Source: a bacterium
GTDB lineage: Bacteria > Arandabacterota > Arandabacteria > Arandabacterales > Arandabacteraceae
Assembly (NCBI GenBank): GCA_029933125.1
Contig: JAOZOU010000035.1
Span: forward strand, 1 to 5,698
Reading direction: 5' to 3'
DNA length: 5,698 nucleotides
Of the stretch, positions 1-5,698 are shown in pieces. Below the pieces are notes generated by a model that saw only the letters and a program-made list of their open reading frames with translations, was not told the origin of the DNA and made no database searches. Position 1 is the stretch's first letter, and each line of letters starts with the position of its first letter. Position numbers and translations under genes: made by a program.

Positions 1-807
1 GTCACTGATGGTAGCGTGGATGGAGAAGCAATACCCGTATTGATGTGGGATTTTGTAGATGCGGATACAATCACAGTGATTTCAGACGTTAAAGGCGTAA
101 AGGGAGTAAGTGGTTCAGGGTATTTGGCAAAGATAGGGTTTGAGGTAAAGGGAAAGGGAGGAGAGGAGTGCGTATTAGCTATAGCCAATGGGATGCTTGT
201 TGACAAAGACGCAATGGAAATACCAGCGAATTGGATTGATGGGGAATTAAAAGTGAGAGAAGAGGATGAGGAGGAAGAGGAAGAAGAAGAGGTCGGCGAA
301 GAAGTTATACCAGGGTCTCCAAAAATAACGGCTTGGAAACCTGCTGCAGAGGTTGTAGGCAATGCAGCAGGCGAGTCAAGAACTTTCAATATCTCTGTAA
401 ACCAAATAGCGGATATTAGCTGGCAAATAAATGGTACAGAAGCGCAAACAAATGAAAGTGTAAAGAAAGCAGTTTTTACGAAGAGTGCAGTTATTGGAAC
501 CTGGAACGTCTCGGCAATCGCAACTAACACAACAACTGGATTATCAGATATGCACATGTGGATATGGAGCGTAACACTTACACCTGCTGCAACTGTAACA
601 CCCTCGCCAGCACTGGCACCGGGGGTAACGCCTATGCCGACACCAACAATAGCACCGGGAGTAACACCAACACCAAAGCCAGCGGAAAAGCCAAAATCAA
701 CGCCTACACCAAAGCCAATTCCAAAGCCTGCAATACCAGGATTCGAAGCGATATTTGCGATAGGTGTGGTGTGGGTGATTGCATATGAGCTGCTAAGGAA
801 GCGATGA
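1..807 (+). CDS. Cohesin-like, PGF-CTERM-anchored surface protein (5' end outside the window)
   Basis: The frame is open to base 1, so the visible 268 residues are the C-terminal part of a longer protein. Residues 1-85 match the end of a cohesin domain: a GSGYLAKIGFEVKGKG strand like the usual GSGxLAxIxFxVKGKG, followed by the closing LVDKDAMEIPANWIDGELKV. Residues 87-101 are an acidic hinge, almost all Glu/Asp. Residues 103-193 form a beta-rich domain with five N-glycosylation sequons (Asn 130, 144, 151, 169, 176). Residues 194-245 are a Thr/Pro/Lys stalk. The protein ends in PGF, a hydrophobic segment and ELLRKR, the tripartite PGF-CTERM signal that archaeosortase A is known to process before lipid anchoring. 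I infer a cell-surface adaptor that displays at least one cohesin beyond the S-layer. The next gene encodes a dockerin protein, a possible partner. The number of cohesins and the signal peptide lie upstream, out of view. GTG at 16 is internal, not the start. Confidence 0.82.
   Translation, partial: VTDGSVDGEAIPVLMWDFVDADTITVISDVKGVKGVSGSGYLAKIGFEVKGKGGEECVLAIANGMLVDKDAMEIPANWIDGELKVREEDEEEEEEEEVGEEVIPGSPKITAWKPAAEVVGNAAGESRTFNISVNQIADISWQINGTEAQTNESVKKAVFTKSAVIGTWNVSAIATNTTTGLSDMHMWIWSVTLTPAATVTPSPALAPGVTPMPTPTIAPGVTPTPKPAEKPKSTPTPKPIPKPAIPGFEAIFAIGVVWVIAYELLRKR
616..687 (+). repeat. 36-base imperfect tandem repeat in the Pro/Thr stalk
   Basis: Two adjacent 36-base units start at 616 and 652. 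Both encode APGVTPxPxP and differ mostly at third positions and towards the end of the second unit. They lie in the stalk of the surface protein, where length variation by repeat gain or loss is common in such linkers. Being a multiple of three, a change of one unit would keep the frame. Confidence 0.6.
736..804 (+). other. PGF-CTERM archaeosortase sorting signal
   Basis: This codes for the last 23 residues of the surface protein: the PGF motif at 736-744, then a hydrophobic stretch of about 15 residues (EAIFAIGVVWVIAYE) and a basic LLRKR tail. This matches the PGF-CTERM layout recognised by archaeosortase A in Euryarchaeota. The Pro/Thr-rich stalk just before it is also typical. It implies processing of the C terminus and membrane attachment with the rest of the protein outside the cell. 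Confidence 0.85.
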
Positions 808-822
808 CGAGAAATGAGCAGA

Positions 823-903
823 ATAGGAAAGATTAGAATAGATGGACACCGGGCCAATAGGAAAGGGGGAAATTTTCACTATTCCCTATTTGGCTATTCC
901 TAT
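823..903 (+). repeat. Nested inverted repeats in the intergenic region
   Basis: The gap between the surface protein and the binding-protein gene holds four copies of a TAGGAA-like motif: direct copies at 822-831 and 856-865 (both AATAGGAAAG) and inverted copies at 881-890 and 894-903. An inner stem can form between 853-861 and 885-894 (9 pairs, one bulged T at 889). An outer 7-base stem can form between 823-829 and 897-903. No long T-tract follows, so it is not a classic terminator. It could be an operator for a dimeric regulator or a processing or termination hairpin; the sequence alone does not decide. I see no convincing TATA box upstream of gene 2. The AT-rich TTAATAAAAAAC at 909-920 is too close to the ribosome binding site to be the promoter of a leadered mRNA. 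Confidence 0.4.
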
Positions 904-923
904 CTCCATTAATAAAAAACTTA

Positions 924-932
924 GGAGGTGAT
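924..932 (+). promoter_or_regulatory. Strong ribosome binding site of the binding-protein gene
   Basis: GGAGGTGAT is a full complement of the conserved archaeal 16S rRNA 3' end and ends 11 bases before ATG 944. It fixes the start of the binding-protein gene. It is far stronger than any site in front of the downstream permease genes, which fits the need for more binding protein than permease. Confidence 0.85.
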
Positions 933-943
933 AAAGAAAAAAA

Positions 944-2740
944 ATGAAACAAACGAGAATAAGAAAAGGAGCAGCGTTTGGAATAATCGCAGTGATGGTA
1001 AGCGCAATGCTGTTAGCATCAATGCCAACGGTAAGCGCAAGTGAAGAGCTTTACGGCGATGCAAATGGCGATGGGAAGATAGACATGCGAGATGTAACAT
1101 ACGTAGGACTGATAATTCTTGGTAAGAAACCGGCTAACGAATTGGCAGATGCGAATCAGGATGGACGGGTAAACGTGGGTGACATAACTTATATCGAGTT
1201 GGTTATTCTTGGGAAGGCTCCGCATCCAGGTAAAACTTTAAAAATAGCTTTAGGTGCCGAGCCTGACGACCTGAATCCGCTCACTATGTATAGCCATAGC
1301 CCTTCTGACGTTCCTAAGTTCTTCAATGGACTGGTTAAATTTGACGAAGATCTTGACCTTGCTCCAGATTTAGCAGAATCATGGGATGTCTCTGCGGGAG
1401 GGAAAGTATATACGTTCCATCTTCGCCAAGGAGTTAAGTGGCATGACGGCAAAGAGTTCACAGCAGAGGATGTGAAATTCACCTATGACCTGATCAGAAG
1501 CGGTGGGATAATCTCTATTTTCCCATTAGCCACAGAATATGAAGACATAGAAGAAGTGGACATCGAGGATGACTATACAGTGAAGTTCACATTGCGTGAG
1601 GGTATAGTGCCATTCAGGGAAAGATTCACAGTGGCAATACTACCAAAACACCTGTTAGAAGGTGAGGATTTGACAACGACAGACTTCTGGCAACATCCCA
1701 TTGGAACAGGACCTTACAAGTTCAAAGAATGGATAGGGGGAGAAAAACTGGTCATGGTAGCTAATCGTAATTATTTCGCGGGAGTTCCAGTAATAAACGA
1801 AGTGACGTTCGTCTTCGTACCTGAAGAAATCAGCAGAGTGAGGTTATTAAAGGATGGCGAAGTTGATGCTATAAAGGTGGACGCGAGAGCTTTGAGTATG
1901 CTGGCTGGTGAGCCAGGAATTGAAATTTATACCGCACCAGCTGCAAATTGGTATGGAATCACTCTACCAACAAAAACACGGCCTTTCGATGAAAAGAAAG
2001 TCCGACAAGCGATAGCCTACGCAATCAATAAGCAAGCGATTCTGGATACAATATTTCAAGATAAAGGAGAGATAGCGTACGGTCCTTTTAGAAAGAGTTC
2101 CTGGGTTTACAATCCTGACATAGAATATGACTACAACCCTGACAAAGCGAGGCAATTACTCGCTCAGGCAGGATTCTTCGACACTGATGGCGACGGAATT
2201 GTAGAAAAGGATGGCGAAAAACTCGAATTTACGTTGATATATCCCGTAGCCGACACGGAAAGAAGGGACATAGCAATCGCAGTGAAGACTGATTTAGCTG
2301 CCGTAGGCATAAACGCCAAGCTGAGTGGTCTCAGTTGGGATGAGATAACAACGGACTTGATTCACGAGAACGCATTTACGATATCGTGGGGTTCACCCTA
2401 TGACCCAGACCTCTTGAATTACAAGTTGTGGCACTCTAAGTTCTTGTATCAGGGCTGGTGGAACCCGGCATGCTATGAAAATCCTGCGGTTGATGAATTA
2501 CTGGACAAAGGAAGGACCACATGGGACAGAGAAGAGCGTAAACATATCTATCAGGAACTCCAAGAGATACTTGTCGAGGATCAGCCAATAGCGTTCATCG
2601 TTTACAGCGATTATGTCTATGCGGTCAGTGAGAAGATAATTGGAATAACGCCAAGACCAGGACCTCACGGTGCAGGAACTCTCGGAGGTATGACAGGCGA
2701 ATTGTGGTGGAACATGGAAGAGTGGGAAGTCAAGCTGTGA
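944..2740 (+). CDS. Dockerin-fused ABC substrate-binding protein, family 5 (peptide/nickel type)
   Basis: The protein has 598 residues. Residues 1-32 are a Sec-type signal peptide (basic KQTRIRK, hydrophobic 10-27, likely cut after VSA at 30-32). There is no lipobox Cys and no C-terminal membrane segment. Residues 37-90 are a complete type I-like dockerin with two calcium-loop repeats. From about residue 98 to the end it is an SBP_bac_5 protein: the LKIALGAEPDDLNPL opening, LAPDLAESWDVS near 139-150, then VKWHDGKEFTAEDVKFTYD, IGTGPYKFKEW, and DTDGDGIVEKDG at 413-424, all usual family signatures. Such proteins bind oligopeptides, dipeptides, nickel, metallophores or some sugars outside the cell and deliver them to a DppBC-type permease. 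The exact ligand cannot be read from sequence. The two permease genes follow directly, so this is the binding component of that importer. The dockerin is unusual and is probably the means of surface attachment through a cohesin, but a non-cleaved N-terminal membrane helix is an alternative anchor. Confidence 0.93.
   Translation: MKQTRIRKGAAFGIIAVMVSAMLLASMPTVSASEELYGDANGDGKIDMRDVTYVGLIILGKKPANELADANQDGRVNVGDITYIELVILGKAPHPGKTLKIALGAEPDDLNPLTMYSHSPSDVPKFFNGLVKFDEDLDLAPDLAESWDVSAGGKVYTFHLRQGVKWHDGKEFTAEDVKFTYDLIRSGGIISIFPLATEYEDIEEVDIEDDYTVKFTLREGIVPFRERFTVAILPKHLLEGEDLTTTDFWQHPIGTGPYKFKEWIGGEKLVMVANRNYFAGVPVINEVTFVFVPEEISRVRLLKDGEVDAIKVDARALSMLAGEPGIEIYTAPAANWYGITLPTKTRPFDEKKVRQAIAYAINKQAILDTIFQDKGEIAYGPFRKSSWVYNPDIEYDYNPDKARQLLAQAGFFDTDGDGIVEKDGEKLEFTLIYPVADTERRDIAIAVKTDLAAVGINAKLSGLSWDEITTDLIHENAFTISWGSPYDPDLLNYKLWHSKFLYQGWWNPACYENPAVDELLDKGRTTWDREERKHIYQELQEILVEDQPIAFIVYSDYVYAVSEKIIGITPRPGPHGAGTLGGMTGELWWNMEEWEVKL
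1052..1213 (+). other. Dockerin domain, both calcium-binding repeats intact
   Basis: Residues 37-90 of the binding protein hold two copies of the dockerin F-hand pattern. Repeat one is DANGDGKIDMRD (39-50) followed by a helix ending in IILGK. Repeat two is DANQDGRVNVGD (69-80) followed by a helix ending in VILGK. The calcium ligands at loop positions 1, 3, 5 and 12 are Asp, Asn, Asp, Asp in both, so neither repeat looks degenerate. The two helix segments, VTYVGLIILGK and ITYIELVILGK, are near-copies, giving the internal twofold symmetry linked in the family to dual binding modes. Known dockerins bind cohesin domains; a cohesin-like domain ends the gene just upstream. Confidence 0.92.
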
Positions 2741-2747
2741 AAAGGAG

Positions 2748-3737
2748 ATGGAAAAAAACCTCGGGCATTATATCTTCAGGAGGGCATTACAAGCTCTCCC
2801 CCTTTTTTTTGGAATTTCTATTCTTACATTTTTAATTGTCTACCTTTCTCCTATCGACCCTGTAATTGCTTACTTCGGTGCGGATGTTGTGTTGCAGATG
2901 CCTGAAGAAGATGTGGCAAAGGTTAAGCAGGAACTGGGGTTAGATGAACCCGTATACATGCAATATTTTTTATGGTTAAAGCGTGTTTGCCAGGGTGATT
3001 TGGGTTTTTCACGTACAAAACATCGGCCAGTATTGGATGTAATTGTCGATAGATTTCCTGCAACTTTGCTCCTTACAGTAACTGGATACAGTATAAGCGT
3101 TATATTGGGTATTATTATAGGCGTTCTTTCAGCTGCTAAAGAAGGTTCCCTTTTTGATCGTCTTTCACTCACCTTGAACTACATCCTTTACTCTACCCCC
3201 TCGTTTTTGATCGCACTTATGGCAATACTTATTTTCGTGGTGTGGTTGGGATGGCTGCCTCCATGCCGCATGACTTCAGTTACCGTAGAAACATCGTCAC
3301 TGTTGTTTTCCATGATAGACCGGATAAAGCACTTAGTATTGCCTGCTCTTGTATTGGGAATGAGTCATCTGGCAATTTATGCAACTTATATACGATCAGG
3401 TATGTTAGAATCACTGCACAAGGATTATATCATTACGGCACGAGCAAAAGGGCTGCATGAATGGACGATAACGCATAAACACGCTTTTCGTAACGCCTTG
3501 CTTCCGTTTATTACGCAACTAGGGTTATCCATACCCTGGCTGATAAGTGGTAGCGTAGTGATTGAAACTATATTTGCATGGCCAGGTATAGGGAGATTGG
3601 CTTATGATGCAGCATTGAGAGCAGATTACACAGTGCTCATGGGACTGACTTTATTCACAGGTACACTGGTAATCTTCGGCAATTTACTGGCTGATATAGC
3701 CTATGCAATCGTTGACCCCAGAGTTAAGTATGATTAA
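2748..3737 (+). CDS. dppB: ABC importer permease, DppB/OppB/NikB type
   Basis: This is one of the two transmembrane subunits of a peptide/nickel-type ABC importer; the family forms a heterodimer with a DppC-type partner in the cytoplasmic membrane. The 329 residues are a normal full length. The N terminus (YIFRRALQALPLFFGISILTF) is the usual first helix, followed by the extracytoplasmic loop with LGLDEPVYMQYFLWLK and a GDLGFS motif. The EAA-type ATPase-docking loop is at residues 226-250, with DYIITARAKGL and HAFRNAL. The C terminus VDPRVKYD is typical. ATG 2748 is the only reasonable start; no in-frame ATG, GTG or TTG lies close upstream. It begins 7 bases after the binding-protein stop, with GGAG directly touching the ATG, so translation is probably coupled to the gene before. 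Substrate type (peptide, nickel, other) cannot be told apart here, so the symbol reflects family only. Confidence 0.93.
   Translation: MEKNLGHYIFRRALQALPLFFGISILTFLIVYLSPIDPVIAYFGADVVLQMPEEDVAKVKQELGLDEPVYMQYFLWLKRVCQGDLGFSRTKHRPVLDVIVDRFPATLLLTVTGYSISVILGIIIGVLSAAKEGSLFDRLSLTLNYILYSTPSFLIALMAILIFVVWLGWLPPCRMTSVTVETSSLLFSMIDRIKHLVLPALVLGMSHLAIYATYIRSGMLESLHKDYIITARAKGLHEWTITHKHAFRNALLPFITQLGLSIPWLISGSVVIETIFAWPGIGRLAYDAALRADYTVLMGLTLFTGTLVIFGNLLADIAYAIVDPRVKYD
2798..2840 (+). terminator. Possible intragenic U-tract attenuation site early in dppB
   Basis: Five C and eight T in a row (2798-2810) lie about 50 bases into dppB, followed by more T-rich sequence to 2840. Archaeal RNA polymerase is known to terminate at oligo-T on the non-template strand without needing a hairpin. 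Partial termination here would give excess binding-protein mRNA over permease mRNA. The T-richness is also explained by Phe/Leu/Ile codons of the first membrane helix, so this is tentative. Confidence 0.2.
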
Positions 3738-4602
3738 GTTCAAATCAGTTGAAATGAAAAGAGAAGGGTATTCAACAGCGAAAAAACACAAGCAAATATT
3801 CGTTAGCCTTGCACTTCTTTTGTTTTTTGTTTTCATCGCGGCTTTTGCACCTTATTTAGCCAAATATGACCCAGTGGAAGCAAGATTGAGCGAAGCAGAA
3901 CAGCCTCCTTCAGTCACCCACCCATTTGGCACGGATTATTTGGGAAGAGATGTATTCAGCAGGGTGGTTTATGGTGCACGCGTTTCCTTACTGGTTGGGG
4001 TGATAGCAGCAGTTGTGGCAGTATGGATAGGTACATCCATAGGACTTATTGCAGGCTACTATGGGGGGTATCTCGACAATATATTAATGCGGATTGTTGA
4101 TACCGTATACTCACTTCCAGCACTTATCCTATTGATTGTTATTATGTCCATGTTTGAACGAAGTATAGAGAGCATTGTGATTGCCATCGGCTTAACTCAT
4201 TGGATGAGCACTGCGAGGTTGATAAGAAGTGAAGCACTGTCATTGAAAAACAGACCCTTTGTTGAAGCAACTGTCGCTCTAGGAGCCCGAGAATCATACA
4301 TCATGCTGCGGCATATATTTCCAAATATCATCTACATAGCTATTGTGTCTGTTACTCTGATGACCGCACACAGTATCCTGACAGAGTCTATGTTGAGTTT
4401 TCTTGGCTTGGGAATACCACCGCATGAATCAAGCTGGGGGAATATGCTTACTGACGCACAAAGGGACATAATGTTCGGTATCTGGTGGACCACTTTCTTT
4501 CCAGGACTGATGATTGTGTTAACCGTATTATCAATAACCTTCTTAGGTGATGGATTAAGAGATATACTCGATCCGAGAAGAGAGTCAATGGTGAGGCTAT
4601 GA
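3730..4602 (+). CDS. dppC: ABC importer permease, DppC/OppC/NikC type
   Basis: This is the second membrane subunit of the importer, expected to pair with the DppB-like protein. From ATG 3730 it has 290 residues, normal for the family. A first helix lies at 23-41. HPFGTDYLGRDVFSR begins at residue 64 and is the DppC hallmark in the periplasmic-side loop. The EAA-type ATPase-contact loop is at about 168-199, containing NRPFVEATVALGA and RHIFPNI. FLGLGIPPHESSWGNML and the end GDGLRDILDPR are also diagnostic. I chose ATG 3730 because it gives the usual short 8-base overlap with the dppB stop. ATG 3703 would overlap by 35 bases, and ATG 3754 would shorten the cytoplasmic tail by 8 residues; none of the three has a clear ribosome binding site, so expression probably relies on coupling to dppB. 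The ATPase partners that normally bind both EAA loops are not encoded in this window. Confidence 0.92.
   Translation: MIKFKSVEMKREGYSTAKKHKQIFVSLALLLFFVFIAAFAPYLAKYDPVEARLSEAEQPPSVTHPFGTDYLGRDVFSRVVYGARVSLLVGVIAAVVAVWIGTSIGLIAGYYGGYLDNILMRIVDTVYSLPALILLIVIMSMFERSIESIVIAIGLTHWMSTARLIRSEALSLKNRPFVEATVALGARESYIMLRHIFPNIIYIAIVSVTLMTAHSILTESMLSFLGLGIPPHESSWGNMLTDAQRDIMFGIWWTTFFPGLMIVLTVLSITFLGDGLRDILDPRRESMVRL
4590..4594 (+). promoter_or_regulatory. Ribosome binding site for the MFS gene inside dppC
   Basis: GGTGA matches the central part of the anti-16S consensus GGAGGTGAT and ends four bases before ATG 4599. With the ATGA stop-start overlap it supports coupled translation and sets the start of the MFS gene. 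Confidence 0.5.
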
Positions 4603-5698
4603 TTTTTAAAGATAGAAACATCCTTTATTTTAGTATTGCAGGTTTTATTGCACTTTTTGGATTTGGGTTCGTGGTGCCATTTCTTCCACTGCATGCCCGC
4701 AACCTTGGTGCCACAAATTTTGAGATAGGACTTCTACTCACAGCGGTTGAGCTTACAAGTGCTTTTGTCGTGCTTCCGCTTGGGCTGCTTGCAGATGGAT
4801 TAGGGAGAAAAAAGTTTGCATGCGCCGGATTCGCACTGTTTTCATTGATGCCGTTGACGTATGCAGTAGCGTGGAGCCCGTGGATGCTTATTGGAATGAG
4901 ATGTATACAGGGTGTAAGTGAGGCTTTATTCTTTACTATCGGCACCGCATACATTGCAGAAATTGCTAAGAAGAAAGGTAGTGCAATAGGTGCGTATAAT
5001 TCATTGACAAATATAGGACTGGTCCCCTCGCCTTTGATAGGTGGCATGCTCATTCCCATATTTGGTATACAAAAAGTCTTCCTTCTCGGTGCGATAATCA
5101 TATTCCTCGGATTTCTTGTATCACTTCCTGCAGAAGGGGATGTGCCATCTCATAAAAGGACTTTTTCCATTCATTTTCAATCAATAAAAAACCCTGATGT
5201 TTATTTGCTTTCGATTCTCGGTGTCTTTTCTGCGATAACCATCGGATTTACAATGGCATTCTTACAGATATTTTTCTATGAGATGGAACCATCAGAAGCA
5301 GTTGCCGGATACGCTACGACCACGTATTTTTTCGGTCTCTCTGCATCGATGTTTTTGGCGGGATATCTGGCAGACATCTTTGGTAGATGGAAGACGACGA
5401 TCTTTGGGTTTATGTTTGGGGGATTCGGGTTCTTTTGCATCTTCTTCTCTGATAACATCTTTCTGGCAGGATTTAGTATCTTTATAATCGGCATTGCTCA
5501 GTCGTTTTCATCTATTCCAGTAGCCACAAAGATCGCAGACATATCTTTAGGTGGGACTGGGGAATCGCTGGGACTTGCATCAATATTCCGTTTATCGGCA
5601 GTCGCTCTCAGCGCAGCTTTTGGTGGAGCGCTCTCTCAATTCATCGGGATAAAAGCTGTGTTTTTGCTCTGTGGAGCGGTAATGCTCGCCGGATCGAT
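4599..5698 (+). CDS. Major facilitator superfamily transporter (3' end outside the window)
   Basis: An open frame of 366 codons runs from ATG 4599 to the window end without a stop. The start overlaps the dppC stop as ATGA, with GGTGA at 4590-4594 as a fitting ribosome binding site. The protein is a typical MFS carrier: motif A LGLLADGLGRKK at 61-72 in the loop after helix 2, RCIQGVSEALF at 101-111 (motif B-like, with Arg101), a helix 5 region GAYNSLTNIGLVPSPLIGG at 131-149, and a second motif-A copy GYLADIFGRWK at 255-265 that marks the start of the second half. The first six helices end near residue 177, a polar loop covers about 178-200, and the visible part reaches about helix 11. MFS members with a strong motif A and motif C-like helix are often drug or small-molecule exporters, but the substrate is unknown. 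Being co-transcribed with an importer suggests a linked role; only about 20-60 residues should be missing. Confidence 0.92.
   Translation, partial: MIFKDRNILYFSIAGFIALFGFGFVVPFLPLHARNLGATNFEIGLLLTAVELTSAFVVLPLGLLADGLGRKKFACAGFALFSLMPLTYAVAWSPWMLIGMRCIQGVSEALFFTIGTAYIAEIAKKKGSAIGAYNSLTNIGLVPSPLIGGMLIPIFGIQKVFLLGAIIIFLGFLVSLPAEGDVPSHKRTFSIHFQSIKNPDVYLLSILGVFSAITIGFTMAFLQIFFYEMEPSEAVAGYATTTYFFGLSASMFLAGYLADIFGRWKTTIFGFMFGGFGFFCIFFSDNIFLAGFSIFIIGIAQSFSSIPVATKIADISLGGTGESLGLASIFRLSAVALSAAFGGALSQFIGIKAVFLLCGAVMLAGS

Follow-up and report, generated by a model that had tools for sequence, protein, structure and literature searches.

Among described systems, the clostridial cellulosome is one of those closest to the locus considered here, with its type I dockerins of two calcium loops, its cohesins, its adaptor scaffoldins combining cohesins with a dockerin, and its surface-anchored cohesin. 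An archaeal cohesin/dockerin pair is represented by Archaeoglobus fulgidus (2xdh), which we take not to be a receptor-anchor gene pair. ATP-binding cassette (ABC) importers of the DppA/NikA type likewise combine an SBP_bac_5 receptor with permeases, and their receptors are held in cis, as lipoproteins or by a PGF-CTERM tail. In anaerobic methanotrophic archaea (ANME), many dockerins and cohesins have been counted in ANME-1 and ANME-2a (Timmers et al. 2017, PMC5244752), and Chadwick et al. 2022 (PMC9012536) reported that ABC receptors of the NikA/OppA and TroA types carry dockerins there and that scaffoldin-like proteins are also present, with the partners left open. Here, we analyzed a contig of 5,698 bases (JAOZOU010000035.1 of assembly GCA_029933125.1; the window is this whole contig, C67 of genome G000 in our numbering), in which a gene for an anchored cohesin directly precedes a gene for a dockerin-bearing importer receptor.

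The genes of the window and its relatives resemble the ANME proteins of Chadwick et al. in lineage group, receptor classes, dockerin fusion and multi-cohesin proteins with a dockerin; however, the main text of that study, in the part consulted, did not contain the cohesin-spacer-PGF-CTERM anchor beside a receptor, the absence of the receptor's own anchor or the reused cassette. No description of these three features was found in the part of the literature covered, including that main text, and the gene pairs, the anchor substitution and the cassette reuse appear to be new. Judging from gene content and order, the pair probably encodes a trans-anchoring module, in which a cohesin post would hold a dockerin receptor beside its permease, whereas the known receptors of this type are anchored in cis. 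The features of the window are as follows (L, C and G numbers denote loci, contigs and genomes).

1 to 807, + strand: open frame entering from the contig's first base (translation)
1 to 255, + strand: cohesin, C-terminal two thirds, 5' end lost at the contig edge (non-circular profile, 100.9 bits; L020 copy over the Pfam cut-off)
256 to 309, + strand: acidic hinge EEDEEEEEEEE (translation; kept in L190, L194, L195 and L182)
325 to 582, + strand: sequon-rich, immunoglobulin (Ig)-like "WxW" spacer (SWQING...GTWNVSA...WIW), no Pfam family (5 sequons)
583 to 729, + strand: Pro/Thr-rich stalk (translation)
730 to 807, + strand: PGF-CTERM sorting/anchor tail (sub-threshold in the window; over the cut-off in L190 and L178)
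875 to 1217, + strand: repeated cassette of Shine-Dalgarno leader, signal peptide and dockerin (94-95% identity to L020 1135-1468 and L021 170-512)
944 to 1039, + strand: type I-like signal peptide without a lipobox (MLLASMPTVSA, then SEE; translation)
1049 to 1216, + strand: type I dockerin with loops DANGDGKIDMRD and DANQDGRVNVGD (Pfam PF00404, 25.8 bits; PDB dockerins)
1226 to 2740, + strand: NikZ-like SBP_bac_5 receptor domain (Pfam, 307 bits; confident model, top fold matches)
2748 to 3737, + strand: ABC importer permease, DppB/NikB type (Pfam/NCBIfam)
3703 to 4602, + strand: ABC importer permease, DppC/NikC type (Pfam/NCBIfam)
4599 to 5698, + strand: major facilitator superfamily (MFS) transporter running off the contig (Pfam MFS_1; bacterial homologue L016 with the same gene order)

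An earlier note, made from the window alone, had recognized a cohesin-like domain at the end of the upstream gene, followed by a hinge of acidic residues, a domain rich in sequons, a stalk and a PGF-CTERM anchor, and all of these parts were confirmed. Residues 1-85 scored weakly against Pfam Cohesin (PF00963; E 0.075) because the domain is truncated by the contig edge. A 94% identical copy at L020, in which more of the cohesin is present, reached 27.9 bits against a Pfam cut-off of 24.1, and full-length anchor relatives reached 37-40 bits. With the window and L020 kept out of a cohesin profile, the window still scored 100.9 bits, against at most 5.8 in 200 shuffles, and a profile from these cohesins retrieved solely cohesins among PDB structures, 2xdh of Archaeoglobus included. 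These profile comparisons confirmed the predicted cohesin and its membership of PF00963. The acidic run occupies residues 86-103. The spacer carries five N-x-S/T sequons, a number reached in 6 of 2,000 shuffles; this domain is common to both anchor types (the second is described below) and widespread on surface proteins of relatives. The tail of the window has the PGF motif, transmembrane segment and basic end of a PGF-CTERM signal, although it scores below the cut-off itself. Retention of such proteins at the archaeal membrane, which the earlier note had invoked, fits the presence of archaeosortase A (ArtA) in 6/6 archaeal genomes tested (217.9 bits in G060). A complete anchor, at L190, has 375 residues and a single cohesin, and its matches to Pfam Cohesin and to PGF-CTERM each exceed the cut-off. 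The suggestion that the scaffold might have several cohesins did not hold: full-length relatives of the window anchor carry one each.

In the product of the next gene (944-2740), a signal peptide is followed by a type I dockerin and then by an SBP_bac_5 domain, bearing out its description as a dockerin-bearing importer receptor. Its dockerin scored above the PF00404 cut-off of 22.9 bits, and both calcium loops are intact.

The order of the two genes is conserved. Domain maps placed the anchor directly upstream of an SBP_bac_5 dockerin receptor in the window, L020, L190, L194 and L195, and directly upstream of a PF01497 dockerin receptor, often in arrays, in L178, L182, L233, L234, L235, L245 and L293. 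Most of these loci had been found via their dockerins; hence, we made a separate search seeded by the anchor protein alone. Among the ten best matches covering most of the anchor, nine were followed by a dockerin receptor; the remaining one, L294, lies on a short contig, where the cohesin is divided between the two strands and the adjoining gene is nitrogenase-like. The neighborhood, upstream gene included, is kept in at least seven related genomes, as expected if the adjacent genes encode partners, which was the earlier proposal.

The dockerin also seems to take the place of an anchor. In this comparison, restricted to receptors with readable ends and with assignments made by eye from listed ends, none of 13 non-redundant dockerin-bearing SBP_bac_5 receptors had an anchor of its own (PGF-CTERM, C-terminal transmembrane segment or lipobox), against 9 of 18 receptors without an intact dockerin from the same genomes (Fisher p 0.0036). 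Those nine anchors comprised four PGF-CTERM tails, two C-terminal transmembrane segments, two lipoboxes and one N-terminal transmembrane-like segment. The earlier idea of a cell-bound scaffold and its client thus survives as putative anchoring in trans. Half-dockerin remnants were found at L191:9131-10930, L253 and L254, and the two with readable ends (L191:9131-10930 and L254) have a C-terminal transmembrane segment, as if, to go by their sequences, anchoring had switched from one mode to the other. In L016, a bacterial homologue of the window operon (51% identity) whose genes likewise run solute-binding protein, permease, permease and MFS transporter, the receptor bears a lipobox (LLASLPAGCGK) at the place taken in the archaeal receptor by a cleavable signal and a dockerin.

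The leader of the receptor gene is reused. The cassette of ~340 bases occurs in at least three copies in this archaeon, and DNA identity between the copies stops at the end of the dockerin; L020 also has a copy of the anchor gene (94.5% identical over 855 aligned bases). Between the window and L020 leaders, 9 of 12 changed codons are synonymous. Dockerins that are 95-98% identical precede receptors that are just 28-34% identical, whereas the G073 orthologue of the window receptor (L189) matches it at 76% in the receptor and 64% in the dockerin, which is of another subtype, with the same junction APHPGKTL. Near-identical dockerins on dissimilar receptors, together with an orthologue bearing a differing dockerin, therefore indicate that tag and receptor have had separate histories, via gene conversion or cassette exchange.

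In the mechanism we propose, the first gene would produce a membrane post, with a single N-terminal cohesin on the acidic hinge, a glycosylatable Ig-like spacer and the Pro/Thr stalk, and its C-terminal PGF-CTERM tail would be processed by archaeosortase A. The product of the second gene would be secreted as a soluble receptor and would plug into the cohesin, with calcium, through its N-terminal dockerin. Docked in this way, the receptor could stay at the membrane by its permease while having neither a lipid nor a transmembrane anchor itself. Reuse of the cassette before unrelated receptors would let several receptors of one cell share docking sites, and separate multi-cohesin scaffoldins could cluster them. 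The domain content, the conserved gene order, the lack of own anchors in dockerin receptors, the reuse of the cassette and the presence of archaeosortase A are direct observations; we infer the binding, its calcium dependence and the location relative to the S-layer.

The same genes might instead serve mainly the architecture of the consortium or its matrix, with dockerin receptors displayed on partner sulfate reducers or in the matrix outside the cells, where they would act as adhesins or scavengers rather than as importer receptors beside their own permeases. Cohesin and dockerin proteins are abundant in ANME and their bacterial partners and have been proposed to act in consortium adhesion (PMC10553843; PMC5244752); some dockerin proteins are PKD/adhesin-like, one has a nuclease domain, and anchor-less multi-cohesin proteins exist (L178:15920-17668). 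However, the receptors of the window, L020, L021, L188 and L189 are co-encoded with their own permeases, and the adjoining cohesin bears a tail for membrane anchoring in place of an S-layer or carbohydrate-binding domain, so we regard this role as improbable. We give less credence to a purely historical adjacency, in which block copying of a repeated DNA segment left the two genes side by side and the real partner of the anchor is another dockerin protein. The near-identical segment does cover both genes in the window and L020, and there are many dockerins per cohesin, but the order is kept across genomes whose anchors are 49-61% identical and with two unrelated receptor families. Least probable of all, and by our estimate very unlikely, is a chimeric contig mis-assembled at a repeat, such that the pair exists in no real genome: the contig is short, mis-binned and begins inside the repeated region, yet the same order recurs in independent assemblies (L190, L194, L195, L235, L293 and others), and the orthologous receptor of G073 also has a dockerin with the same junction.

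Several observations nevertheless weigh against anchoring of the receptor by its neighbor. The window anchor is truncated, and its single cohesin is deduced from relatives; the cohesin gene of L187 ends short, before its anchor. Nine dockerin-less receptors likewise have no obvious anchor of their own. In G060, cohesin matches number 7 and dockerin matches 21; partners may thus be on other proteins, and because cohesins are far fewer than dockerins there, receptors cannot as a rule have an anchor each. An AlphaFold model of the anchor built from two sequences had a pLDDT (predicted local distance difference test score) of 33, too poor to be used, and the dockerin portion of the receptor model was of low confidence and too weak to interpret. 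Lastly, co-variation of cohesin with dockerin was only weakly above that of spacer with dockerin (partial Mantel 0.32, p 0.026, n=10) and reflects mostly joint inheritance, for which reason we rejected it as proof of specificity.

The earlier note had gone on to suggest an uptake analogue of a cellulosome, and this stands in a weaker form. Separate genes with two to four cohesins adjoin the anchor in L178, L233 and L234 and a dockerin receptor in L246, while L196/L228 encode adaptor scaffoldins with 3-4 cohesins and a dockerin; multi-cohesin scaffoldins are therefore part of the same system, on genes other than that of the anchor. The cargo, in contrast, is not that of a cellulosome. Instead of plant-polysaccharide hydrolases, the dockerin proteins of G060 comprise mainly receptors of PF01497 and PF00496, along with PKD proteins, of which one has a nuclease domain; no peptidase was found among them, contrary to what had been envisaged. 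The locus further differs from the clostridial cellulosome in that its anchor has one cohesin and a PGF-CTERM tail rather than an SLH domain or sortase signal, and the set examined here yielded neither carbohydrate-binding modules nor peptidases.

If the trans-anchoring module is real, receptors of ABC importers can be anchored non-covalently and interchangeably, and the twenty or so dockerin proteins of one genome, mostly receptors, would be explained. What cohesins and dockerins do outside cellulosomes, notably in ANME, has been an open question, which the gene pair turns into a two-protein binding test. The answer bears on how uncultured methane oxidizers capture scarce metals, for example nickel for methyl-coenzyme M reductase.

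What the earlier note missed is that the contig is foreign to its genome bin and that the upstream gene cannot be completed from the assembly. The GC content of the window is 0.437, against ~0.49 in the core of G000. Its tetranucleotide distance to that core is 0.266, compared with a maximum of 0.194 for sampled 5.7-kb core pieces and with only 0.156 and 0.171 to L020 and L021. G000 looks like a bacterial assembly: its same-domain relatives reach up to 9 Mb, archaeosortase A was not found in it, and the window contig holds its sole clear PGF-CTERM-like tail. G000 also gave no archaeal small-subunit ribosomal RNA match, which is weak evidence alone since the model also responds to bacteria. The bin has cohesin/dockerin proteins of its own on C42 (L013, L014) and C84 (L015), with FlgD-like C-terminal sorting modules, which we take to be typical of a bacterial secretion route; they are unrelated to the window. 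We rejected these cohesins as partners of the window receptor, since they are bacterial and have other end signals, and the window contig differs in GC and tetranucleotides. L020 and L021 come from "Methanosarcinales archaeon B64_G16" of the Guaymas Basin (site taken from the scaffold name). McrA was not found in the B64_G16 genome, which is incomplete; an ANME-1-type McrA (1289 bits to 3sqg, the ANME-1 enzyme) occurs in G073, the relative whose dockerin leader is the nearest. As B64_G16 is a relative of G073, we therefore take the window, on these sequence relationships, to be a probable ANME-1-type archaeal contig binned by mistake into a bacterial assembly. Another small contig of G000, C144 (L115), is 99.7% identical to L021, an archaeal contig from the Guaymas Basin; C67 and C144 are thus two small archaeal contigs inside a bacterial metagenome bin listed as 0.25% contaminated.

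The ligand of the receptor was considered separately. No NCBIfam substrate model reached its cut-off for the window receptor: DppA gave 161 of 1005 bits, Opp4A 246 of 650 and NikA 200 of 393. In a fold search with the receptor model, the top four matches were NikZ (4oeu/4oet; Campylobacter NikZ with Ni-histidine), the peptide-binding AppA (1xoc) and NikZ-II (8efz; the Clostridium protein CcNikZ-II). NikZ and NikZ-II are 32-34% identical to the window receptor, with AppA ranking between them. A histidine near the N-terminus, presumably a nickel ligand in NikZ, is retained in the alignment. The peptide substrate previously assumed is thus unsupported, and nickel or a nickel complex seems at least as likely a ligand, as far as sequence and model comparisons suggest.

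A different set of receptors, at L192:7354-9129 and also at L256, L300, L301, L260 and L257, has a C-terminal single EF-hand-like tail and no anchor of its own. Their neighbor is a PGF-CTERM protein with "ATRTLPEE" repeats and the same spacer domain (L192 6000-7370), which stands directly between receptor and permeases in L192, L256, L300 and L301; further "ATRTLPEE" anchors occur at L296, L297, L298 and L302. The repeats matched no Pfam family, and profile comparison did not support reading the EF-hand tail as half a dockerin or the repeats as cohesins. Our tentative, rather doubtful extension is a general plug-in surface, where anchor-less receptors with a swappable tag would share a few membrane posts, scaffoldins would cluster them, and the unrelated EF-hand/"ATRTLPEE" pair of tag and post would do the same job in sister operons.

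Other loci widen the range of cohesin and dockerin proteins. Tandem arrays of up to ~15 dockerin-bearing PF01497-type receptors (B12/siderophore class) lie at L177, L178, L179, L185, L186 and L228-L230; the L179 array is followed by a nitrogenase-component-1-like gene, similar to that after the anchor in L294. Downstream of two PKD-dockerin proteins, the gene at L180:3222-4274 encodes a protein that we read, from its sequence, as the fusion of a cohesin and a rhodanese-like domain, with a tail of the PGF-CTERM kind. A surface protein of >2,250 residues (L184:7226-13999, contig C1 of G060) combines PKD domains, a staphylococcal-nuclease domain and a dockerin. Anchor-less cohesin proteins at L190:10814-11830, L181:1922-2800 and L234:3139-4893 end in a conserved domain of ~120 residues (GTGGHSESVKI..ATWDGY..NIVFNEPFMLHAGETYSYTI..TGSYPQIHH).

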